Of a stretch of DNA of 64,000 nt, positions 13,616 through 49,521 are shown piece by piece (the stretch's first letter is position 1; the number at the start of each line of letters is the position of its first letter). Source of the DNA: a virus. Position numbers and translations under genes: made by a program. Location: positions 25,419 to 89,418 of IMG/VR virus record IMGVR_UViG_3300025759_000072. One strand, given 5' to 3'. A model generated the notes under the pieces. That model worked only from the letters and a program-made list of their open reading frames with translations. It was not told where the DNA came from and ran no database searches.

Positions 13616-14515
13616 TTAGTCTTCTTCTGCTAGCTGTTTGAAGAAGTCTAAGCTATCATCAGATGACTCTTCGCTCAAAGGTTGATCCTCTTCTTGAACC
13701 TTCGCGGATTGAACTTGACGAGGCTCCTCAAAAACTTCCTCGTCAACTTCGTCAGCAGTTGAGGATACTGCTGTGGCTCCAAGAACCCGATTTAGTCTTG
13801 CCTGTAGTTCGGCATAGGTCTTGAAGTTTTTACGATCTAGAAACTCTTGTAGGGAGTATTGTGAGTTCCAGACCTTTTCCAGCTCATCATCTTCTTCTGA
13901 TAGAGCTGAAACTTTATCAAACTCTGACTTGTCGTAATTACGATAACCTTCGACATTACGAATCTTCAGTTTGAGATTAGCGCCTTCCCAAAGATCAAAA
14001 GGATTGGTTGGATCTTCATCTTCGAACTCAGGGTTCATTTGGTCGTTGATCTTATCCCAAATCTTCTTACCATACTTGTAAAGGAATACCTTACCCTCGT
14101 TTTCAGGATGAGCAGGATCTTTTACAATATAGATGTTTGAGATATAAGACAGACGACGCTTCTGCTTGCGAGCCTGTTCTTTACCAGCTTCGTCACCACG
14201 ATTCCAAAGAGTGGAGTTATACTCGCCAAGAGGATCTTTCTCATTGAGAGTCGTAAGCGAGTTCTCAATGTACCAGCCACCTGGACCTTGGAAACCATGA
14301 GAGAACAAACGCACCCAAGGAAGGTCTTCGCCTTTTGGTGCAGGAAGGAAACGAATCACAGCATAACCATTACCTGCCTTATCGACTTCTGGTTGCCAGA
14401 AACGAGTATCAGCACCGCCTTGTTGAGAACTACTTTGAAGTTTGTTTGTCTCTGAAATGATCTTGTCGTAAACAGATTTGCGTGAACGCTTGAGGTCTTT
14501 AAAAGATGTAGTCAT
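13616..14515 (-). CDS. gp32: Single-stranded DNA-binding protein gp32
   Basis: 299 residues, as T4 gp32 (301). The N-terminal basic LAST-type stretch (FKDLKRSRKSVYDK) serves cooperative binding. The OB-fold core follows (FWQPEVDKAGNGYAVIRFLP, WVRLFSHGFQGPGGWYIE), and the acidic C-terminal tail is DQPLSEESSDDSLDFFKQLAEED-like. The protein has no cysteine at all: the T4 zinc ligands (three Cys after the conserved His) are replaced in the ENSLTTLNEKDPLGEYN loop. It coats DNA in replication, recombination and repair. Its promoter region carries overlapping sigma70-type and late elements. An intrinsic terminator follows. Confidence 0.95.
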   Translation of the reverse strand: MTTSFKDLKRSRKSVYDKIISETNKLQSSSQQGGADTRFWQPEVDKAGNGYAVIRFLPAPKGEDLPWVRLFSHGFQGPGGWYIENSLTTLNEKDPLGEYNSTLWNRGDEAGKEQARKQKRRLSYISNIYIVKDPAHPENEGKVFLYKYGKKIWDKINDQMNPEFEDEDPTNPFDLWEGANLKLKIRNVEGYRNYDKSEFDKVSALSEEDDELEKVWNSQYSLQEFLDRKNFKTYAELQARLNRVLGATAVSSTADEVDEEVFEEPRQVQSAKVQEEDQPLSEESSDDSLDFFKQLAEED

Positions 14516-14586: not shown

Positions 14587-14615
14587 TTTATACTATATTT
14601 TCTCACCATTGTCAA
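14587..14615 (-). promoter_or_regulatory. Compound gp32 promoter (sigma70-type plus late box)
   Basis: On the minus strand TTGACA (14615-14610), 17 bases, TATAAA (14592-14587). The -10 is also part of a perfect TATAAATA late box (14592-14585). Both lie upstream of gp32, so gp32 could be read early and late. Confidence 0.7.
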
Positions 14616-15219
14616 TAACTTTTTTCAAGATTTTTCGATATTCAAATTTATCATAGTGTAAAAACTGTCGGTATTTCTGTATCTGTTTCTTCTTTTCCTC
14701 CCATACTATATCATCAAGTTTCGCATTCCAGTATCGAGTGAAGTGAAGGATATCGTCGAGGATAATCATCGTTTCAATACATATTTTCTTTTGAAGAAAA
14801 AGTTTTAACAATTGTGGATGATTATTGTCCTCGACGATTAATAGATCATTTAATGATTTATCATGAAGACGACTAAAGTCGACCAAACAATCAACATCAC
14901 TCCTAAACATATACGAAAGACTCTCTTGTCTTTTTTTGTAGGATACATAATTGTCCTCGCTTTCTTTTGAAATAAGATTGCCAATCCAATTATCACTCAC
15001 TAAAAAGTTACTTACGAAAAATTCTACAAGTTCATTCTTATCATATTTCTTTTGTAACTTGCGAAAGAAAAACTTATCATTCCTCTTGAGAAAAGATTCG
15101 ACATTCGCACGAATCTTTCCATTATATTTAAAGTAATCATAATCACTGGTAAAATGCTGCTTCAACGCAAGATACGTTTTGTAAGCATCAAAACCTTCAT
15201 TCAAATCATATGCCATCAT
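14593..15219 (-). CDS. gp59: gp59-like helicase loader
   Basis: 208 residues, near T4 gp59 (217). The N-terminus has FDAYKTYLALKQHFTSDYDYFKYNGK, the pattern of gp59 proteins. The rest is basic and helical (SFLKRNDKFFFRKLQKKY, VSNFLVSDNWIGNLI). gp59 loads the gp41 helicase onto gp32-covered forks and coordinates the start of recombination-dependent replication. It lies between gp33 and gp32. The first ATG at 15219 overlaps the gp33 stop (ATGA), and a second ATG is at 15216. Confidence 0.9.
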   Translation of the reverse strand: MMAYDLNEGFDAYKTYLALKQHFTSDYDYFKYNGKIRANVESFLKRNDKFFFRKLQKKYDKNELVEFFVSNFLVSDNWIGNLISKESEDNYVSYKKRQESLSYMFRSDVDCLVDFSRLHDKSLNDLLIVEDNNHPQLLKLFLQKKICIETMIILDDILHFTRYWNAKLDDIVWEEKKKQIQKYRQFLHYDKFEYRKILKKVIDNGEKI

Positions 15220-15431
15220 ACTGGTAACTTATTAATCTTTTCTTTCATTAAATTTAGATCACTTGCTTCTGAAGCAATCGTTTCTTTTATTTTTTGATTT
15301 AAAAGTTTAGCAGCAGTTTCGATTTCCATACCTGTCTTATCACAGTAATGAACGATTGCGTCCATATATGGAATATCCAACTGATAAACCATTTCTTCAA
15401 TTTCCATTGAAAAATTTTGTCTACTTAACAT
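15216..15431 (-). CDS. gp33: Late transcription co-activator gp33
   Basis: 71 residues from ATG 15431. A GGGAG ribosome site sits five bases upstream and the ATG overlaps the stop of the hydrolase gene (TAATG); an ATG at 15443 would give four extra residues without a site. The sequence SRQNFSMEIEEMVYQLDIPYMDAIVHYCDKTG followed by AAKLLNQKIKE is the gp33 pattern of marine T4-like phages, which are shorter than T4 gp33 (112). gp33 bridges the RNA polymerase flap and the sliding clamp and is needed for the TATAAATA promoters seen in this window. Confidence 0.88.
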   Translation of the reverse strand: MLSRQNFSMEIEEMVYQLDIPYMDAIVHYCDKTGMEIETAAKLLNQKIKETIASEASDLNLMKEKINKLPV

Positions 15432-15928
15432 TATTTCTCCCATCTGTAAAATATATGATCTTCAATTTTTGCTGTGCGTGTTTTAGTTTTAGCCCATGCT
15501 GGTGTTACATAGTAAGCATGATAGTGAGTAGCACCATTTGTGATATCAATCGACCACTCCGCAATCAGAACAATAGCAAGTCTGTATATCTCTCTATAGG
15601 TTTCGATATCTCTTATAGTATCTGACTTACCATCACAGTACCAAGAAAACTGACAAAGGTTTCTAACCGGAATCATCTTCGTTTTGTCTTTCCAAGATTT
15701 CTTATGTGGACCCTGCATAACAACTTCACAGATGTTATTTGGAAATCTTGAATCATTAACACGATTCAATGTAACTTGCCCGACAGCGACTTGACCCACC
15801 ACTGGCTGATTTCGAGCCTCATGATAGATATTCAATGCCAGACAAGTTACATTGTCATTATCATCGTATGCTGCAGCGGTTTGAGAAAAACACAAAGCAA
15901 CAAATATAGTTACTATCAACCTTTTCAT
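15431..15928 (-). CDS. Secreted SleB-like cell wall hydrolase
   Basis: 165 residues from ATG 15928. A signal peptide (KRLIVTIFVALCFSQTAAA, cleavage near residue 20) precedes a SleB/Hydrolase_2-type domain: ALNIYHEARNQPVVGQVAVGQVTLNRV with the catalytic-type Glu in YHEAR, then a CQFSWYCDG motif and ATHYHAYYVTPAW. Such enzymes cut peptidoglycan glycan strands. The signal suggests export by Sec without a holin. A one-helix membrane protein gene is directly upstream. This is a second wall hydrolase besides the T4-type lysozyme at 57.5 kb. The sigma70-type promoter at 15935-15963 would start RNA almost at the ATG. Confidence 0.85.
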   Translation of the reverse strand: MKRLIVTIFVALCFSQTAAAYDDNDNVTCLALNIYHEARNQPVVGQVAVGQVTLNRVNDSRFPNNICEVVMQGPHKKSWKDKTKMIPVRNLCQFSWYCDGKSDTIRDIETYREIYRLAIVLIAEWSIDITNGATHYHAYYVTPAWAKTKTRTAKIEDHIFYRWEK

Positions 15929-16183: not shown

Positions 16184-18379
16184 ATGGCTATTGGCACGAT
16201 AACGACTCTTGAAGGATCCGCAAAGGTTGAGAAACCAAATGGCGATATTGTCGAGTTATCCGAAGGCGACACAGTTGATTCGAATGATATAATCATTACA
16301 GATGAAAATTCCGGAACAACAATCGAGTTTGTAGATAAATCTACTCTTGTTGTAACTGAAAATGGTAAAATCACATTAGACGAAATGGTATATGATCCTT
16401 CCACTCAGGAAGGAAATTTTGCCATTGATTTAGTGTCTGGTATTTTTGTATACATCAGTGGCGATATTGCTAAAACTGATCCAAACGCCATGACACTGAA
16501 TACACCTGTTGCGACGATTGGTATTCGTGGAACGCAACTTGGTGTAAAAATCTTCGAAGGTGAAACAACATTTACACTAATGGCAGAAGCAGATGGAACA
16601 GTTGGTGAACTTATCATTACAGATTTGTTTGGTAATGTGATTGTATTGAATCAAGAAGGTCAAACGGTAAAAGCAACTGCTGAGGGCGGTCTTGGAGAAA
16701 TTACAACATTATCTTTTGAAGAGATTGGTGAAATTTTTGATTTACCGTTAGAACATCTTGCAAGATCAGGTTCTTATAATGGTAATCCGTATGACAATTC
16801 ATCAGAAAGTAAACAAGATGATGGTAGCGACTTAGCAGATTTTAACACTGAAGCTGGTGGTGATTCTGTTGAAGGTGGAGATGTTTTCAGTGAAAACTTT
16901 ACACAAATTGGATTAGACTCAAATCCAACCGTTGGGATTATTCCACCAACACCATTTTATCAAAACGAAGTTCCAACTTATGATAGTAGAACACAGACTG
17001 TATCAGTGGATAGAGACAATCGAAGAGATGATCAATCTGTTGTTAATATTGAAACGCCTATTGAGGTTGTAATTCAAACGCCAGTAAAATTTGAGAAAAC
17101 AATTGTCTCAACAACAACAACATTTGAGACAACAACCAATACATCACGTGGTGAAGAAACTCTGTTATCAACAATTTATGAAGATGATGTATCAAGAGAA
17201 AATGATTTAGAGAACAATCGTGAAGTAATTACTACTGACCGTCAATACACAGATACGTATAACACATTAGTAACTACAACGACATCAATCACACCTGTTT
17301 ATCTGATTACATACTCAGATGGCACAACTGAAATTGAAGATGGTGAAACCACAATCAATAAACAAGAAACAACTGAAACAAGAACTGATACAAGAACCGA
17401 GCAGATAGTACAATACGAATCGGTTCAAGTTACAACTAACTATGAAACACAGATAACAACCAGTATCATTTCAACAAATACAAACACGAGTTATATCGAC
17501 GATACACAAAAAGAAAATGATTTAGAGAATAACATTACGAATGTAGAGGTTACTCGAAACTACACAGATACGATGATAGAAACCGTTTCTGAAAAAACTA
17601 TCACAACACCAGTTTACACCATTTCATATTCAGATGGTACAACTGAAATCGAGTATGGCGAACCTACGATTGAAGAAAATATCTACGATAAAGAGCCAGA
17701 AGAAACCACACGTTCAGAGATTATCTATACAGGGACAGAAGAACCTAACATCATTACCACATATAATACAGTCACGGAAACAAATATACTAGACCCTGTG
17801 CTTGTTGATAGCGAAGTTAGTTCAGAATTTGATACGAAAAAAGATGGTAGGAATAAACAAGATATAACAACAGAAACGATTACGACAGTAGAAACATATA
17901 ATACAGAAACAGTAACAACCACTACAGAGACACCAGTCTATACGATTGTATATTTCGATGGTACCACAGAAACAGAATTCGGTGAATCAAATAGTACATC
18001 TTCATCGGAGTTTGAAACGAATACTGAAACAACATATTCTACTGGCAGTGTTACATACGAAGATTGGACCATTGGTACTGGTGCTAATAACGGTTTTGGT
18101 AATGGTGACCAAGATGCTCCTGGAAACAGCGGCGACAATAACAATGCAGAGAACAGTACAATGAGTTTATCTGGATTTGGAATAGAAGAAGATGAAAGTA
18201 TCGATCTTTCAAATATCTTAGGTCCAGAACCAGATCCTGTAATCGAAGAGACAAAATCAAATAAAGGTAAGGGTAAAGGTAAAGTAGAAGAAAATGTAGG
18301 AGAAAGTTTAATTTTCTCCGGAGAAAGTTATACCACAACCATATCCGATGATGTTATAACATCATTAGAATACACATAA
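16184..18379 (+). CDS. FecR-domain protein with three long Thr-rich repeats
   Basis: 731 residues with a good AAGGA site. Residues ~1-150 are a FecR-type domain: GTITTLEGSAKVEKPNGDIVELSEGD, then TLNTPVATIGIRGTQLGV, the family hallmark. Residues ~300-620 hold three imperfect repeats of about 107 residues, each ending in TPVY-x-I-x-Y-x-DGTTE-x-E-x-GE (near residues 369, 476 and 583) and dominated by Thr, Glu and Asn. The tail has a Gly/Asn stretch and a Lys/Gly run (KSNKGKGKGKVEE). There is no signal peptide or membrane segment. FecR domains also head large repetitive surface proteins. A late box implies a virion or late-stage role such as a fibre or decoration; this is inference. Confidence 0.75.
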   Translation: MAIGTITTLEGSAKVEKPNGDIVELSEGDTVDSNDIIITDENSGTTIEFVDKSTLVVTENGKITLDEMVYDPSTQEGNFAIDLVSGIFVYISGDIAKTDPNAMTLNTPVATIGIRGTQLGVKIFEGETTFTLMAEADGTVGELIITDLFGNVIVLNQEGQTVKATAEGGLGEITTLSFEEIGEIFDLPLEHLARSGSYNGNPYDNSSESKQDDGSDLADFNTEAGGDSVEGGDVFSENFTQIGLDSNPTVGIIPPTPFYQNEVPTYDSRTQTVSVDRDNRRDDQSVVNIETPIEVVIQTPVKFEKTIVSTTTTFETTTNTSRGEETLLSTIYEDDVSRENDLENNREVITTDRQYTDTYNTLVTTTTSITPVYLITYSDGTTEIEDGETTINKQETTETRTDTRTEQIVQYESVQVTTNYETQITTSIISTNTNTSYIDDTQKENDLENNITNVEVTRNYTDTMIETVSEKTITTPVYTISYSDGTTEIEYGEPTIEENIYDKEPEETTRSEIIYTGTEEPNIITTYNTVTETNILDPVLVDSEVSSEFDTKKDGRNKQDITTETITTVETYNTETVTTTTETPVYTIVYFDGTTETEFGESNSTSSSEFETNTETTYSTGSVTYEDWTIGTGANNGFGNGDQDAPGNSGDNNNAENSTMSLSGFGIEEDESIDLSNILGPEPDPVIEETKSNKGKGKGKVEENVGESLIFSGESYTTTISDDVITSLEYT

Positions 18380-18702: not shown

Positions 18703-18834
18703 TTAATATTTCAATAAACGTTGACGCATTAGTCTTTGGGCATCAGTATGCATACCCTCACGTGCTAAGGCTTCTGCAGCTTTAGCAGTTCCAATAAGTT
18801 CAAAATATTTGATTAGACTTTCGAAAAAGTGCAT
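18703..18834 (-). CDS. Small helical protein (43 residues)
   Basis: ATG 18834 has an AGGAGA site eight bases upstream and a perfect late box at 18881-18888, so I take it as a real gene. The product is a short amphipathic helical protein: HFFESLIKYFELIGTAKAAE, then ALAREGMHTDAQRLMRQRLL. Function unknown. Confidence 0.7.
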   Translation of the reverse strand: MHFFESLIKYFELIGTAKAAEALAREGMHTDAQRLMRQRLLKY

Positions 18835-18880: not shown

Positions 18881-18888
18881 TATTTATA
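18881..18888 (-). promoter_or_regulatory. Late promoter box
   Basis: The minus strand reads TATAAATA, 47 bases upstream of the 43-residue gene and next to a 9-bp inverted repeat (18891-18899 with 18912-18920). Confidence 0.7.
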
Positions 18889-18890
18889 AT

Positions 18891-18920
18891 GGCAGTTTTT
18901 CTGTTTCTAGGAAAACTGCC
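18891..18920 (-). terminator. Hairpin at the 3' end of the tmRNA region
   Basis: A perfect 9-bp stem, GGCAGTTTT / AAAACTGCC, with a 12-base loop. It lies just beyond the tmRNA tag reading frame in the direction of transcription. No T run follows, so it may be an RNA 3'-end or processing structure rather than a classical terminator. Confidence 0.5.
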
Positions 18921-19190
18921 AAACCCAAGAAAGATTAAGCCGCTAGGCGGTAATCCTCAATGTAATTATCGTTTGCTGCGACAATTATAGTGTTTGACCT
19001 ATTACGCGGTCAGCCGTGTTACTCCAATTCGCTATACACCATCAGTCGATCCTAGCACACCCCCAAAAGCACACCGAGATTCTTTATACCCAGCCTAGGA
19101 AAGGAACCTTTCGGTGCCCGATGTGCTTTTGGTGGAGGTGCGGGGATTTGCACCCCGGTCCTGTCTAGCTTTCGCTCCTCTTCAACGTAA
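18921..19190 (-). ncRNA. ssrA: Circularly permuted two-piece tmRNA (ssrA)
   Basis: Reading the minus strand, the acceptor piece comes first. It has a T-arm with stem CGGGG/CCCCG (19157-19141), acceptor strand CACCTCC (19140-19134) and encoded ACCA (19133-19130). An intervening hairpin follows (11-bp arms 19129-19119 and 19076-19066). The coding piece then starts with GGGGGTG at 19064, pairing with CACCTCC and giving the G3-U70 wobble that alanyl-tRNA synthetase needs. A P2-like helix joins 19169-19162 and 19038-19031 (7 of 8 pairs). The tag frame at 18976-18935 begins with GCA and encodes ANDNYIEDYRLAA then TAA. The piece order is that of alphaproteobacterial tmRNA. It tags products of stalled ribosomes for proteolysis. 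The outer ends are approximate. Confidence 0.93.
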
Positions 19191-19194
19191 CATA

Positions 19195-19461
19195 TTATTT
19201 ATTATAATTTACTTTTTTATCATTGTCAATAGATTTTTCAGTTTTATCCCATTCAAAGGTATCTCGCATTTCCAACAGACGTTTCTTATCCTTAGACCTA
19301 TCGATAATGATGTAGTTGTCTTCCTTGCACTTAATCTCTTTACAGATTACAGGCGAGAGAACAGCACCAGCAAGAGTAGCAATGATCGATACAGGCTCAA
19401 TCGCTTTTGCTGGTTGACTCAGGAAGACCAGCGGCAGCACGAAGAGAAGTCTTTTCTTCAT
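19195..19461 (-). CDS. Small exported protein
   Basis: 88 residues. Signal peptide KKRLLFVLPLVFLSQPAKA (cleavage near residue 20), then a hydrophobic stretch (VSIIATLAGAVLSPVI) with two Cys in ICKEIKCKE, and a charged tail. It overlaps the lipoprotein gene upstream by 65 bases in another frame, so it is the last gene of the exported-protein operon. Its 3' end contains the tmRNA promoter. Function unknown. Confidence 0.75.
   Translation of the reverse strand: MKKRLLFVLPLVFLSQPAKAIEPVSIIATLAGAVLSPVICKEIKCKEDNYIIIDRSKDKKRLLEMRDTFEWDKTEKSIDNDKKVNYNK
19201..19229 (-). promoter_or_regulatory. Sigma70-type promoter of the tmRNA
   Basis: Minus strand TTGACA (19229-19224), 17 bases, TATAAT (19206-19201): perfect consensus. 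The predicted start is near 19194, about 25 bases before the P2 strand of the acceptor piece. It lies inside the 3' end of the upstream gene. Confidence 0.8.
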
Positions 19462-20044
19462 CCTTAACCTCCTTTGAAACCTTGTCTAGTTCTTTCCATG
19501 CTTTCTCAGACTGAAACTTAGACTGCATAGCACGAACGGTCATTAGACGATTACGAATGATCTTTGCTGCTTCCTTAGAGTCGAATGCAAGAAGAACATA
19601 TGAACTATACTGAATGCCATTAGGAATGACTTCAATCTTACGCTGCTCGTATCCATTGACTTCAGCATCAGAAACAATGTTCTTCGTCGCCTTTTCTACT
19701 TCATTAAGTACAGCAACATCAAAATCATCACCGCCGATCTTAGCAGTGTATGTCTTTGTCTGACTCCGCAATTTAGAATAGATACGATCTGCCAGTTGCT
19801 CCTTTGCATTCAATCGAGCGATATCGATTGATAACTGTAGATCAGGCATCGTTGCCGTACCAACAGAGAATACCACATCCTTATCCTCATGGTTCTCAAG
19901 GAACCAACTTGGAATCGAAGATGTAGTTTCCTTGACTTGCTTCTGCTTATACTCAAACATCTCTTTGTTCGCTACCATCTCAGGTGTGGTAGATGAACAC
20001 GCAGCCAGAGATAACGCTCCAGCAATCACACAAATATTCTTCAT
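19397..20044 (-). CDS. LPP20-type lipoprotein
   Basis: 215 residues from ATG 20044, where the ATG overlaps the stop of the gene before (ATGA); an earlier start at 20059 is less likely. The signal has a lipobox, SLAACSS, so Cys is near residue 16. The mature part resembles LPP20-family lipoproteins: PSWFLENHEDKDVVFSVGTATMPDLQLSIDIARLNAKEQLADRIYSKL, a pattern shared with bacterial outer-membrane lipoproteins that have a beta-alpha domain. It is probably anchored in the inner leaflet of the outer membrane. Phage use of such a protein is unusual; envelope remodelling or a pore partner is speculative. Confidence 0.8.
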   Translation of the reverse strand: MKNICVIAGALSLAACSSTTPEMVANKEMFEYKQKQVKETTSSIPSWFLENHEDKDVVFSVGTATMPDLQLSIDIARLNAKEQLADRIYSKLRSQTKTYTAKIGGDDFDVAVLNEVEKATKNIVSDAEVNGYEQRKIEVIPNGIQYSSYVLLAFDSKEAAKIIRNRLMTVRAMQSKFQSEKAWKELDKVSKEVKDEEKTSLRAAAGLPESTSKSD

Positions 20045-20175
20045 TTTATAATCCTCCATTCTGTATTTTTAACTCCACAAAACTTGTCATATACTTGATC
20101 AGTATATGGCATCCATTCAGGCATAGTATATACTAAACCAACACCAATAACAACACCAACAATAACCTTAATCAT
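20041..20175 (-). CDS. Small membrane protein (44 residues)
   Basis: ATG 20175 lies inside the last codons of the upstream gene, and the TGA stop overlaps the lipoprotein ATG (ATGA), so it is coupled on both sides. A single transmembrane helix (IKVIVGVVIGVGLVY) is followed by an aromatic periplasmic tail (PEWMPYTDQVYDKFCGV). Function unknown. Confidence 0.7.
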   Translation of the reverse strand: MIKVIVGVVIGVGLVYTMPEWMPYTDQVYDKFCGVKNTEWRIIK

Positions 20176-20695
20176 TACAAACTTCCTTGTAACCTTTCAG
20201 TCTATATCCTTCACCATATTGAACTGTTGCTTCTACTAACTTACATTTTTTATTCAAAACAACTTCCTGAACCTCACCATACTTCGGCAATCGATGGGGT
20301 AATGGAATCTTGAGTTGATTATCAGTCTTTCCAATCTTTGTATTACACTTCATAGATGTTGTTGATGAAAACATCTCAGGCGACACTCGGCGATAGATAG
20401 AATCTTTGGCTCTTGTAATAGCCCTATCACACGCCTCGTCTTCAGCCATGGATGTATCAAACACGAACGAAGAAATACCACGATGCCATTCACCATCGAC
20501 CTTGCTGCGAATAATAATAAGGCATTTCTTTGCACCATGAAAGTCAATTACCTTCCGCTTCTCAATATTCGTCTGTTCAATCTTCTTTACATGAACAGAA
20601 GAGACATCGCGGTCATAGTTACATTCACCATACGCTACTGTAGGAATGAGTAACAGAGGCGTAAACTTACTGTATCGAATGAGAGATTTTAACAT
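20168..20695 (-). CDS. Exported protein of the envelope operon
   Basis: 175 residues. An N-terminal signal (residues ~1-22, KFTPLLLIPTVAYG) precedes a mature part with five Cys, probably disulphide-bonded in the periplasm. It overlaps the upstream exported gene by 29 bases and the 44-residue gene by eight. No family recognised. Confidence 0.7.
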   Translation of the reverse strand: MLKSLIRYSKFTPLLLIPTVAYGECNYDRDVSSVHVKKIEQTNIEKRKVIDFHGAKKCLIIIRSKVDGEWHRGISSFVFDTSMAEDEACDRAITRAKDSIYRRVSPEMFSSTTSMKCNTKIGKTDNQLKIPLPHRLPKYGEVQEVVLNKKCKLVEATVQYGEGYRLKGYKEVCND

Positions 20696-21083
20696 CGATC
20701 TTATCGCTTTCCGGTTTCAACTTAGTTCTTGTTTGATACACTTTACCACCAAGTTCATATGTCACAAGGAATCCTTCAAGCACCGTTTGGACTTCTGTGC
20801 GGTGTAGAGTCTTACACTCCTCAACATAGATCGTCGCTGTTGGAGCAGTGACTTTCTTGAACATCCTTTGAAAGATATCATCTGTGTTATAGATTTGGTT
20901 CGCACCCTTTGTGATCGGGATTACCTTTCTTATCATATCACATTTTTCATATGGTATCGATACTGTTGTGTTTCGAGTCAAGGGTTGTGTTTCAATGATC
21001 GTGCCAGATAATGTTTCAGCGTTTGCTTGGTCAATCATTAAGATTGATGTGAAAAACATAATGGATGCTAGTTTATTTTTCAT
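20667..21083 (-). CDS. Exported protein, first gene of the envelope operon
   Basis: 138 residues from ATG 21083. A signal peptide (KLASIMFFTSILMIDQANA) gives a mature protein starting ETLSGTIIETQPL. The mature part is beta-rich with two Cys (YEKCDMIRK, VEECKTLHR). Its ending, YELGGKVYQTRTKLKPESDKIDVKIS, is like small periplasmic or outer-membrane-associated domains. It heads four overlapping exported-protein genes. Function unknown. Confidence 0.72.
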   Translation of the reverse strand: MKNKLASIMFFTSILMIDQANAETLSGTIIETQPLTRNTTVSIPYEKCDMIRKVIPITKGANQIYNTDDIFQRMFKKVTAPTATIYVEECKTLHRTEVQTVLEGFLVTYELGGKVYQTRTKLKPESDKIDVKISHSIQ

Positions 21084-21107
21084 AACAAACTCCGAAATCT
21101 TGTTTAT

Positions 21108-21115
21108 TATAAATA
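21108..21115 (+). promoter_or_regulatory. Late promoter box of the HNH gene
   Basis: TATAAATA on the plus strand, 60 bases before the HNH ATG, inside the otherwise leftward region. Confidence 0.65.
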
Positions 21116-21174
21116 GTGTTAGTCGCGGAGAGGCAACTCCCACTAACTCTAAACCTGTAAAGGAGGTCCAGCAT

Positions 21175-25348: not shown

Positions 25349-25725
25349 AATCTCAACGCAATGTCGTCAGCAATCATCTGGTCCATACCAGCGGGAGTCA
25401 TCGGATAACCACGCTGTTTGAGGATCTTAGCGACATGGGGAGATACGTAACCCTTAGTCTGAAGAGCCTGGAGAGGAGCCAAACCACTTTCTAACAGCGC
25501 AAGGTATTCTTCAACCGTGAAGTTTTCACACAAGAACTTTTTGAAAGCAACCATGCCACCACGCTTGAATCGAGCAATGAAGGCTTCTTTCGGCATACCA
25601 ATTCGACTAGGGTGGATCTTGTCTGCACCATAGACCTCATCGTATGTCTTCTGACCAGCAAAGGGTCCGACGTAGTTGAGGTACATACCGTCAAATTGGA
25701 AATTCTTGTTCACAAACTTAGTCAT
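25345..25725 (-). CDS. Early protein (126 residues)
   Basis: ATG 25725 after the promoter leader. Sequence: FDGMYLNYVGPFAGQKTYDEVYGADKIHPSRIGMPKEAFIARFKRGG, then a helical half (ENFTVEEYLALLESGLAPLQALQTKGY). No family recognised. Confidence 0.75.
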   Translation of the reverse strand: MTKFVNKNFQFDGMYLNYVGPFAGQKTYDEVYGADKIHPSRIGMPKEAFIARFKRGGMVAFKKFLCENFTVEEYLALLESGLAPLQALQTKGYVSPHVAKILKQRGYPMTPAGMDQMIADDIALRL

Positions 25726-25828: not shown

Positions 25829-26308
25829 CTACTTAGCGTTTTTAGGGAATATTTTTTGAACTGGGAAGTCATAAAAGACGAAAATTTGATCAGACGTTTC
25901 AAGACGCTGATTCTTTTTACCCTCTTTTTTCTTCAATTTACCGACCTGAGGAATACCAGCCGCTGCTCGTTTTTGAGCCTTTTTGAGAGATTTCTGTTTT
26001 TCTTCGGACCACTCGAATCGAATCAGTTTATCGTCGGTATCATCGATGATCCACATAGTGATATATTTCTGCCCGTTAACCTTCGTCACTGAATATGACT
26101 TAAAAATAAACTCATCTTTCGGCATCTCGTATTTGGCTCGACCAATGAACTGCTCGTTAACCTGAAATGATAAAAAGACAGAAAATAGAATGAATGGTAC
26201 GGCAGCATACCTCAACCATGTCTTTTGTACAATAAAAGGAAGAAAGCAGATTGCGCCTGTCACGATCCATAAGATCATCAGGTTTGTGGTTGTGAACATC
26301 ATAATCAT
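25829..26308 (-). CDS. Two-helix membrane protein of the proton-channel operon
   Basis: 159 residues; the ATG overlaps the ExbD-like stop (ATGA). Two transmembrane segments (TTTNLMILWIVTGAICFLPF and LRYAAVPFILFSVFLSF) are followed by a soluble domain with YITMWIIDDTDDKLIRFEWSEEKQKSLKKAQKRAA and a very basic stretch (KLKKKEGKKNQR). Part of the soluble domain (residues ~70-95) echoes phrases of the ExbD-like protein. Coupling suggests it acts with the two channel proteins. Last gene of the operon. Function unknown. Confidence 0.78.
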   Translation of the reverse strand: MIMMFTTTNLMILWIVTGAICFLPFIVQKTWLRYAAVPFILFSVFLSFQVNEQFIGRAKYEMPKDEFIFKSYSVTKVNGQKYITMWIIDDTDDKLIRFEWSEEKQKSLKKAQKRAAAGIPQVGKLKKKEGKKNQRLETSDQIFVFYDFPVQKIFPKNAK

Positions 26309-26943
26309 GGCGCGCCGTACTTCATATACATTTGTTTTGATGTTGCAATTCTTGTCTCATTGTCTGTAAAAATAACGTTACCATTTCGAACATCAAATGA
26401 CGCTACAAACTTCTCGACGCCTTTCTCTTCAAGATCGAACTTTTTGACTTTAAGAATCTTATATGGATTCACTTGAATGATCTCTACAGTCACATCTTTC
26501 TCTATTCCATAACCGTCGTAGTAATGTGTGGTTACCGAAAACGATCTATCTGATTTTGAACGAATGCTAATCACTTCACGATTAACGAAGATTTCTTCTT
26601 TACTCTCTTGTGGTTTATTGTCAACTGAAGTATTAAGTGTATCATTCTTTTGGCCTAAATCATCTCTATCGAGATTCATTAGAGCGATATCTTTACTACG
26701 GAAACTTACGATGTTATCTGCATCATCCTTTATCCACAAATCAATATCGTTACCGCTTTCATCATTCCATTTTAGAACAATCAAATATTCAGCCTTTGGT
26801 TCAAAGGTATCCTTCTTAGCAACTGGATTGATTAGAATGAAAGCAAGCAGAAACAGAAATACGAATCCAATCAGCAGATTGAATAGTAAATCAACGAATC
26901 CAAGTGTGCTTTTATATCTACTCGTTTTGTTCACTGTTTTCAT
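26305..26943 (-). CDS. ExbD/TolR/MotB-like membrane protein
   Basis: 212 residues from ATG 26943, overlapping the channel gene by 26 bases. One N-terminal transmembrane helix is preceded by an Asp, LGFVDLLFNLLIGFVFLFLLAFIL, the arrangement seen in ExbD, TolR and MotB, where that Asp carries protons. A periplasmic domain follows with EYLIVLKWNDESGNDIDLWIKDD and DIALMNLDRDDLG, a beta-sandwich-like motif. It has no OmpA-type peptidoglycan-binding sequence. Paired with the MotA/TolQ/ExbB-like protein it should form an ion-driven membrane complex. Confidence 0.8.
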   Translation of the reverse strand: MKTVNKTSRYKSTLGFVDLLFNLLIGFVFLFLLAFILINPVAKKDTFEPKAEYLIVLKWNDESGNDIDLWIKDDADNIVSFRSKDIALMNLDRDDLGQKNDTLNTSVDNKPQESKEEIFVNREVISIRSKSDRSFSVTTHYYDGYGIEKDVTVEIIQVNPYKILKVKKFDLEEKGVEKFVASFDVRNGNVIFTDNETRIATSKQMYMKYGAP

Positions 26944-27379
26944 ACACCACCAACTGAATCTGTGTGAGAGTTGAGCAAACAAGGCCAACTAACGTAGTTA
27001 CCAGAGCGGTGCTCATACCAACTGCCATTGCCTGAATTGAATCTTGAACATTCTTAACATTTGATACATCAAGCGTCTCAAACGCTGTACCAAGCATAAG
27101 AAGGAATCCAGCAACAGTACCAATCATACCAAGACGTGTCATTGCTTCTGCAGCAAATGAAACATAATCAACGATCTTATCATTTGTCAGTTCCCATGTT
27201 GATCGAGAACTTAACCAACCAACAGAAAGTGTAGATAGAACGAAGATAAAAATAATCAGAAAACTGATCTTTGTAAGATCAGCATCATACATCATCTCCC
27301 ACCAATCATAGTGATACATCAGACCAGTGGCAAATGCGGTCAACGAAAACTGAATCCACCACTTCAACATTGCGTTCAT
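26918..27379 (-). CDS. MotA/TolQ/ExbB-like proton channel protein
   Basis: 153 residues with three or four hydrophobic segments. The C-terminal half has the family signature: AEAMTRLGMIGTVAGFLLMLGTAF and then QAMAVGMSTALVTTLVGLVCSTL. It lacks the large cytoplasmic insert of TolQ and the long tail of ZorA and is shorter than cellular ExbB (about 240). The order is small periplasmic protein, channel, ExbD-like partner, two-helix protein, with overlapping stops and starts. In bacteria such 5:2 complexes use proton motive force to move a periplasmic partner. Confidence 0.85.
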   Translation of the reverse strand: MNAMLKWWIQFSLTAFATGLMYHYDWWEMMYDADLTKISFLIIFIFVLSTLSVGWLSSRSTWELTNDKIVDYVSFAAEAMTRLGMIGTVAGFLLMLGTAFETLDVSNVKNVQDSIQAMAVGMSTALVTTLVGLVCSTLTQIQLVVYENSEQNE

Positions 27380-39992: not shown

Positions 39993-40432
39993 CCTCGCCT
40001 CATCTTCGCAATATCTTTGGCGCTCTCTTTGTCAAACACTGGCACGAGATTTGACTTATGCATCGTTGCAATCCCGAGAAGTTTACGTTCACCATTATAT
40101 ACCTTTGCTTCTTTCTTAGCCATACTTGGATGATAGAACGATTGGTCGGGGATGGAAGATTCGAACTTCCGACCCTCTGCTCCCAAAGCAGATGCGCTAC
40201 CAGGCTGCGCTAATCCCCGTGAATTGGCGATCCCGACTGGACTCGAACCAGTGACCGTCGGTTTAGAAGACCGATGCTCTAATCCAACTGAGCTACGGGA
40301 CCCAACACCCATGCGCTGAAGAAACTTGGCGTGTTCTTTCTCAGCAGCAATAAGTGACTTAGACTTATTCTTCTTCTTGCGTTTGCTGGTATTAGTGGTC
40401 GTGTAATATACAGGAAGCATATGCATAGTCAT
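39989..40432 (-). CDS. Conserved phage gene with two tRNAs embedded in frame
   Basis: From ATG 40432 (ATGA overlap with the gene before) the frame is open for 147 codons. Residues ~1-43 read [22 protein letters not shown]...[10 protein letters not shown], and the last 44 read [42 protein letters not shown]. Both halves look like parts of one conserved T4-like phage protein. The middle ~55 residues are translated tRNA sequence (tRNA-Arg and tRNA-Pro, same strand). Either the tRNAs are an in-frame insertion that is tolerated, or the halves are now separate, the second starting at ATG 40123. The full-length product is unproven. Confidence 0.55.
40143..40219 (-). tRNA. tRNA-Pro (TGG)
   Basis: Minus strand: acceptor CGGGGAT/ATCCCCG, D-arm AGCGCAGCCTGGTAGCGC, anticodon loop TTTGGGA (anticodon TGG), T-loop GTTCGAATC, discriminator A and encoded CCA (40145-40143). 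All arms pair. Confidence 0.96.
40225..40302 (-). tRNA. tRNA-Arg (TCT)
   Basis: Minus strand: acceptor GGTCCCG/CGGGATC with one G-U pair, D-arm TAGCTCAGTTGGATTAGAGC, anticodon loop CTTCTAA (anticodon TCT), T-loop GTTCGAGTC, discriminator G and encoded CCA (40227-40225). Five bases separate it from tRNA-Pro. It reads AGA codons, which are frequent in AT-rich phage genes. Confidence 0.96.
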
Positions 40433-48384: not shown

Positions 48385-48767
48385 AAAGCAATGTCCTTTT
48401 TCTCAACATGTAATGTATTGCTATCTTTTACTGAACCACCAACAGTTTTACGCACGATATCTGCGCTGATTGGTTCTACATAATAAATTTCTAACACCTT
48501 TGCATCATTTAAATTAGTTTCAAACCAATGATACTCATTTGGTTTTACTGTTGTGAAATCACCTGAACGCAATCTAGTAACATCCACTAAATCATAATCA
48601 TTCTTACGAACATGAATTTCAATCACACCATCAACACAATAAAACGCATTCCACTTAAACTCATGTTTGTGTTCTGAGCATTTCATTTTTGGTTTCACAT
48701 CAATTCTATGAACTTCAATCATTGGAGTAACAATAAGTGATTCTGTAGTTCCCCATACTTTACCCAT
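48381..48767 (-). CDS. Cupin-fold protein
   Basis: 128 residues from ATG 48767 (48773 is two codons earlier). SEHKHEFKWNAFYCVDGVIEIHVRK gives the H-x-H-x3-4-E metal motif, and RLRSGDFTTVKPNEYHWFETN the second cupin motif. Likely a sugar isomerase/epimerase-like or binding protein for an activated sugar. It overlaps kdsA. Confidence 0.82.
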   Translation of the reverse strand: MGKVWGTTESLIVTPMIEVHRIDVKPKMKCSEHKHEFKWNAFYCVDGVIEIHVRKNDYDLVDVTRLRSGDFTTVKPNEYHWFETNLNDAKVLEIYYVEPISADIVRKTVGGSVKDSNTLHVEKKDIAF

Positions 48768-49521
48768 TAACATGATATTTAATTTCCTTTACAACATTTT
48801 CAAAATCTTTTAAGTGTAACATATTTGGTCCATCGCTTGGCGCATTATCTGGATCTTCGTGAACTTCCATAAAGAAATTCTTTACACCGACGGCGGCGGC
48901 AGCGCGAGCCAGACCAGGAACATATACGCGATTACCACCAGAACTAGCCCCAAGACCACCTGGTTTTTGGACTGAGTGGGTAGCATCAAAAACAATAGGT
49001 ACATCAAAGGTATCAAGCATATACTGTATACCAGTATAATCGACAACGAGATTATTATATCCAAAACTCGTTCCCCTTTCTGTTATCATCACATTATCAG
49101 TACCAGTCTTTGAAAGAATACCTGTTACATCCCAAGGCGCAAGAAACTGCCCCTTTTTGATATTTACTGTATGACCTGTTTCTACTGCTGCTTTCAATAA
49201 ATCTGTTTGACGACAAAGGAATGCAGGTATCTGAATAATGTCTGGTAAATTTTTTGCTCTCCATGCTTTTTCAATTTGTTGTGGTTCATGAAAATCTACA
49301 CAAGTCTTTATACCTGTATCTAATCTAATTGAGTGAATCCACCATAGACCATCATTACCCGGACCACGAATACCCGATTCACTACTGCGATTTGCTTTAT
49401 CAAACGATGCTTTAAAATAATAATCAAATCCATACTTGTCACAGATTTCAGCGCAGTGATTGGCAATTCTTAATCCCTGCTCTTTACTCTCTATCTGGCA
49501 TGGTCCAGCAATAATAATCAT
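48760..49521 (-). CDS. kdsA: 3-deoxy-D-manno-octulosonate 8-phosphate synthase
   Basis: 253 residues, near cellular KdsA (about 280). AGPCQIESKEQGL at the start, FKASFDKANRSS, GIRGPG, TCVDFHEPQQI, DIIQIPAFLCRQTDLL, VNIKKGQFLAPWD, TERGTSFGYNNLVVD and VFDATHSVQKPGGLGASSGG are all KdsA landmarks. It condenses phosphoenolpyruvate and arabinose-5-phosphate to Kdo-8-phosphate, the Kdo of LPS core. The other Kdo enzymes are not in the window, so it must rely on host KdsC and KdsB or feed a related acid sugar. Confidence 0.93.
   Translation of the reverse strand: MIIIAGPCQIESKEQGLRIANHCAEICDKYGFDYYFKASFDKANRSSESGIRGPGNDGLWWIHSIRLDTGIKTCVDFHEPQQIEKAWRAKNLPDIIQIPAFLCRQTDLLKAAVETGHTVNIKKGQFLAPWDVTGILSKTGTDNVMITERGTSFGYNNLVVDYTGIQYMLDTFDVPIVFDATHSVQKPGGLGASSGGNRVYVPGLARAAAAVGVKNFFMEVHEDPDNAPSDGPNMLHLKDFENVVKEIKYHVNG

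Follow-up and report, generated by a model that had tools for sequence, protein, structure and literature searches.

The stretch of viral DNA analyzed here (the window, 64,000 nucleotides) comprises positions 25419–89418 of an 89,418-base virus record that may itself be a genome fragment. Its minus strand contains, at approximately 19192–18888, a complete circularly permuted (two-piece) tmRNA gene. The gene had been proposed from sequence in an initial annotation, which also named the Rfam alpha-tmRNA covariance model as a check. A cmscan search confirmed the proposal. The family tmRNA_permuted (RF04321) matches 19192–18935 (−) with 89.8 bits (E = 6e-16, curated cut-off 47), and alpha_tmRNA (RF01849) matches 19233–18888 (−) with 63.5 bits (curated cut-off 50). 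The order of the parts is that of both families: acceptor 3′ strand with CCA, intervening segment, acceptor 5′ strand, and tag. The score of 89.8 bits is lower than that of most cellular alphaproteobacterial copies (mostly 115–165) and of many phage copies under the Rfam model, and four outer pairs of the model are mismatched in the window tmRNA. ARAGORN reported only two tRNAs in the window and made no tmRNA call. A tRNA-Pro(tgg) and tRNA-Arg(tct) pair is located at 40143–40302 (−).

The acceptor piece (19130..19192, −; ∼63 nt) is delimited by the RF04321 match, by co-folding, and by covariation in 61 phage sequences. From its 5′ end, it consists of the distal P2 strand UGUUAC (19192–19187), the proximal P2 strand CUA..CAG (19168–19161) followed by GGAC, the T-arm CGGGG-UGCAAAU-CCCCG (19157–19141, stem strands 19157–19153 and 19145–19141), and, by sequence reading, the acceptor 3′ strand CACCUCC (19140–19134) and A73 with the encoded CCA (19133–19130). 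The piece was originally drawn from 19157 to 19130. Its 3′ end with CCA was placed correctly, but the 5′ end has to be moved to approximately 19192 because the P2 strand must be included. The intervening segment, which links CCA to the 5′ acceptor strand (19065..19129, −; 65 nt) folds into a long hairpin (−20.6 kcal/mol), as had been recognized; only its end needed correction, from 19066 to 19065. The coding piece (18888..19064, −; ∼177 nt) does start with GGGGGTG at 19064. The end previously given for it, 18921, omits the 3′ hairpin GGCAGUUUUCCUAGAAACAGAAAAACUGCC (18891..18920, −), which is identified by the RF01849 alignment, and the RF01849 match runs to 18888. The conserved AACAGAA loop of this hairpin recurs in 51 of the 56 phage tmRNAs with a tag.

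The coding piece further contains the acceptor 5′ strand GGGGGUG (19064–19058), a D-loop with GGAUCGAC, two P2 strands (19045–19039 and 19022–19017), and a pseudoknot-like region. By sequence reading, GGGGGUG pairs with CACCUCC at 7/7 positions, G3-U70 included, in agreement with the 7-bp acceptor stem described at the outset. Co-folding with the tag region included favors other pairings for the window tmRNA. The tag frame (18935..18976, −) reads GCA AAC GAT AAT TAC ATT GAG GAT TAC CGC CTA GCG GCT TAA (18976–18935). As stated before, it encodes ANDNYIEDYRLAA followed by TAA; the peptide starts with Ala and has a degron-like xAA end.

The acceptor piece is preceded by a sigma70-type promoter, TTGACA-17-TATAAT (19201..19229, −), with the −10 box just upstream of the piece. 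This site scores 12/12 and was rightly called perfect in the initial annotation. Transcription would begin at, or close to, the acceptor-piece 5′ end. Within 110 bases around the acceptor-piece start, 13 of 60 phage loci have a promoter-like site of at least 10/12, compared to 1 of 54 in a control window 600 bases upstream. The −10 box lies no more than 28 bases from the acceptor-piece start in 12 of these 13 loci, and no more than 12 bases in 10 of them. Such sites in relatives make it likely that a transcript from the acceptor piece onward is made early by host polymerase. Directly past the 3′ hairpin and upstream of an ORF at 18834–18703, we noticed TATAAATA (18881–18888, −), which corresponds to the late promoter consensus of T4. 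This sequence follows the tmRNA in only 2 of 56 loci, and a conserved late promoter of T4 type was rejected as a family trait.

T4-type core genes surround the tmRNA (gp33, gp59, gp32, tail tube, baseplate, and primase families), and by these genes, the virus is a T4-like phage. The same strand carries a gp33-type late promoter transcriptional regulator (15216..15443, −; phrog_254, E = 7e-20), a gp59-type helicase loader (14593..15219, −; PF08993/PF08994, phrog_269), and a gp32-type single-strand DNA-binding protein (13616..14515, −; phrog_224, E = 9e-117). The position of the tmRNA relative to these genes is conserved. We sampled 131 phage tmRNA loci, and a gp33-like gene is visible in 65. 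In each of these 65 loci, the tmRNA and the gp33-like gene share a strand and the tmRNA comes first, at a median distance of 760 bases. The gp59 gene is on the tmRNA strand in 54/54 loci and gp32 in 36/36. Moreover, tmRNA distances correlate with gp33, gp59, and gp32 distances (Mantel rho 0.26–0.39, p = 0.001).

Several other neighbors deserve mention. An ORF on the opposite strand (16184–18379, +) encodes a 731-residue FecR-domain protein with a threonine-rich repetitive middle (PF04773, phrog_37870), and separates the tmRNA block from the endolysin-gp33-gp59-gp32 genes. Immediately upstream of the tmRNA are four small ORFs (19195–21143, −) whose starts resemble those of secreted proteins or lipoproteins and which match no Pfam or PHROG family; relatives of one of them, 19397–20059, occur near tmRNA genes in three other phage loci (L018, L021, and L044). 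No glutamine riboswitch reached the Rfam gathering score anywhere in the window, and around the tmRNA none appeared even when E values up to 1 were admitted. Elsewhere, the segment 41969–49521 (−) contains glycosyltransferase-, methyltransferase-, and sulfotransferase-like ORFs and a KdsA-like protein (48760–49521), all assigned by reading only; this block looks like a phage surface-sugar gene cluster. Two neighboring membrane ORFs at 26305–27379 (−) are candidates, again by reading, for TolQ/MotA-type and TolR/ExbD-type proteins.

Is the structure of this RNA maintained by selection? We compared 61 dereplicated phage tmRNAs, most of which were gathered with a search pattern in which parts of the acceptor stem and D-loop are fixed. 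G3-U70 occurs in 61/61, although for most rows the pattern itself required it. Because of this mode of collection, independent evidence comes only from P2 and the T-arm. The interpiece P2 pairs are standard in 54–61 of the 61 sequences and are formed by many pair types; one of them is AU in 28, UA in 26, CG in 5, and GC in 2. The T-arm pairs covary as well. The nearest relative of the window tmRNA, L058, is 90% identical over the tmRNA body. Between the two, the distal P2 changes from UGUUAC/GUAACA to CGUAAC/GUUACG, which corresponds to two compensatory changes with pairing kept. The P2-like helix, which had been postulated to join the pieces, is therefore well founded. The covariation is evidence of selection on the structure of phage tmRNAs, and the conserved position described above is evidence that they travel together with core genes of the phage.

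Permuted tmRNAs in phages are not new. PMC9004378 describes them for Melnitz and dozens of marine phages and reports 53 unique two-piece tmRNAs from 18,146 phage genomes, 50 of them from marine or aquatic samples. The position of the Melnitz gene upstream of the late-transcription coactivator is also given there, and the merged Rfam permuted model (RF04321) is described in PMC11915505. The window tmRNA belongs to this published class of marine-phage two-piece tmRNAs. In our own pattern scan of IMG/VR, the permuted pattern was widespread, occurring in at least 120 contigs. Another set comprised 50 contigs, mostly fragments, that were anchored on window gp32 relatives; 19 of them hold a tmRNA over the Rfam cut-off. 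A regex scan of gp32-anchored loci gave no matches; the regex was probably too strict, and the scan may have omitted loci with an exact pattern match that had been fetched already. The initial annotation was correct about the alphaproteobacterial type and the T4-like carrier, but the combination is not remarkable as such in view of PMC9004378, the annotation of phage Mosig, and the IMG/VR spread.

Several phage records lack a tmRNA annotation, namely those of HTVC008M, Mesorhizobium Cp1R7A-A1, Ruegeria RpAliso, and Caulobacter CcrBL9. Unannotated permuted tmRNAs over the Rfam cut-off are found in NC_020484 (HTVC008M; L241:5980-6189), MT188704 (L239:5776-6062), OR257569 (L242:2895-3116), and NC_048047 (L243:2979-3284). 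Together with the ARAGORN miss, these records indicate that the trait is undercounted in phages. Compared with PMC9004378 and PMC11915505, three results appear to be additions: the covariation among phage copies, the synteny with gp33 in 65/65 loci, and the separate phage lineage described below.

We then come to the question of origin. A FastTree phylogeny of 170 rows, in which the cellular rows are 90 alphaproteobacterial and 19 further copies, places 57 of the 61 phage tmRNAs in one clade (support 0.94), separate from these cellular copies. Most of the further copies are probably from SAR11, as judged from 1.0–1.5 Mb low-GC genomes with 9-aa tags. The phage/cell label changes twice on this tree, compared to approximately 50 times in shuffles. 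IQ-TREE with 117 rows (55 cellular) again gives two changes (bootstrap range 2–2) and places the window tmRNA in a starred set of 49 rows, all of them from phages (99/97); these trees rest on 159 columns, an unsettled bootstrap, several long branches, and pattern-collected rows. The sequences closest to the window tmRNA are from phages (90%, L058/L076), whereas the best sampled cell reaches 76%. The lineage looks old and phage-kept rather than recently stolen from a host. The D-arm signature GGGGGTGTGCTAGGATCGAC, searched as a pointer to the host, had no cellular match among the genome contigs. In PMC9004378, the Melnitz gene is read as acquired from Alphaproteobacteria. A separate phage lineage differs from this view; an ancient alphaproteobacterial acquisition would fit both. 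The permuted tmRNA may be an old, vertically inherited part of a late-transcription and replication block (tmRNA-gp33-gp59-gp32) in aquatic T4-like phages, acquired about twice and phage-specific since, a scenario we find as easy to doubt as to accept. If true, these phages would have a standing rescue RNA during host shutdown without repeated capture from current hosts.

As to function, the gene probably encodes a working two-piece tmRNA that serves the phage as an early rescue RNA and uses SmpB, EF-Tu, AlaRS, and proteases of the host. From the features described, we infer its expression, processing, charging, role in rescue, and benefit as follows. A short precursor would be transcribed early in infection by host RNA polymerase with sigma70. 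Host tRNA-processing enzymes would remove the intervening hairpin to leave the ∼63-nt acceptor piece and the ∼177-nt coding piece, which the acceptor stem and P2 would join. The RNA would be charged with alanine by host AlaRS via G3-U70, and host SmpB and EF-Tu would bring it to ribosomes that have stalled on broken mRNA. The tag added there would be (A)ANDNYIEDYRLAA, where A is the charged alanine, and its LAA end would lead to ClpXP-type host proteases. The benefit may be extra rescue capacity during degradation of host and early mRNAs. That the phage supplements or takes over ribosome rescue, the latter suggested at first reading, is a plausible hypothesis. Provided that phages retain a tmRNA of their own, rescue of ribosomes is probably a limiting factor in infection.

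The dependence on host SmpB would follow from its absence in the searched phage records. No SmpB (PF01668) was found in 50 phage records, namely the whole 89-kb contig and 49 others; as the contig may be incomplete, an smpB might lie elsewhere in the phage genome. A control search detects SmpB in 10 of 14 bacteria. With tblastn, SmpB gave 67 matches in phage records, and the best 20 of these 67 include no marine T4-like relatives. This absence would also suit a tmRNA mimic that damps trans-translation by titrating host SmpB or by competing with host tmRNA. A tRNA-like-only form is reported from phage DS6A, together with strong inhibition of tmRNA by a similar molecule, perhaps through titration of SmpB (PMC4131195). 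Yet tag and charging are unnecessary for a titrating decoy, and the window and most relatives keep a tag frame with stop, the A-A end, G3-U70, and the encoded CCA; we consider a mimic improbable. That the gene was captured from a host only recently, or is a decaying remnant that does nothing for the phage, is disfavored even more clearly and seems very improbable to us. Compensatory pairing, a conserved tag, closest relatives in phages, the starred phage-only clade, and conserved synteny all speak against it, despite a covariance-model score below that of most cellular copies.

Selective tagging would mean that the phage tag is recognized differently by the host, more strongly or not at all, so that degradation is redirected, for example, to recycle amino acids. 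Selective degradation of host proteins is proposed in PMC9004378. Phage tags do tend to be longer: 47 of 57 distinct tags have 13 or more residues, compared to ∼15 of 58 sampled cellular tags, and the type ANDNxxxx[DEG][FY]ALAA occurs in many phages and in 1 of 385 alphaproteobacterial genomes. In neither comparison are the hosts matched, and the 9-aa tags of some phage groups resemble those of the probable SAR11 order. For these two reasons, we make no claim of a phage-specific tag motif. At equal body divergence, tag identity is 0.69–0.82 in phages versus 0.52–0.74 in cells. Phage tags are thus no more variable than host tags, and a fast-evolving tag, as expected from an arms race, was discarded. 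The LAA end is kept (48/57 phage tags; cellular tags end in LAA in 32/58 and VAA in 14/58). With this end preserved and a turnover no faster than in hosts, the earlier idea of a takeover of the tag finds no support. Since a tmRNA has no known means of choosing host proteins either, we regard selective tagging as unlikely. In L004 and L011, the ANDN start appears to be duplicated within the tag ANDNIANDNYSEYRLAA.

The window tmRNA extends the phage-encoded ribosome rescue RNA, a trait known but little studied, to another T4-like lineage. Bacillus phage G and the mycobacteriophages Bxz1 and Wildcat also carry tmRNAs, but belong to other phage groups, and their genes are not called permuted (PMC4131195). 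The Pelagibacter phages Mosig (SsrA annotated) and HTVC008M (unannotated) also encode a permuted tmRNA, which precedes the late promoter factor and shares its strand; unlike the window, they show short tags and divergent bodies (Mosig ∼76%). Melnitz, a marine Methylophilales phage (SsrA, MZ577095–MZ577098), likewise combines a permuted alpha-type tmRNA with a T4-like genome. Its tmRNA lies directly upstream of the late-transcription coactivator, followed by gp59 and gp32, and the same gene series is found in the window, where, however, the FecR-domain ORF, the endolysin, and two small ORFs intervene between tmRNA and gp33. Melnitz has a glutamine riboswitch (RF01739) just after the tmRNA, in contrast to the window, and its tag ANDNYVPVDYALAA differs from ANDNYIEDYRLAA. 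Finally, the alphaproteobacterial two-piece tmRNA (RF01849) shares with the window copy its gene order, acceptor stem, T-arm, P2, tag, and 3′ hairpin with AACAGAA loop, whereas the phage copies form a separate lineage in our trees.
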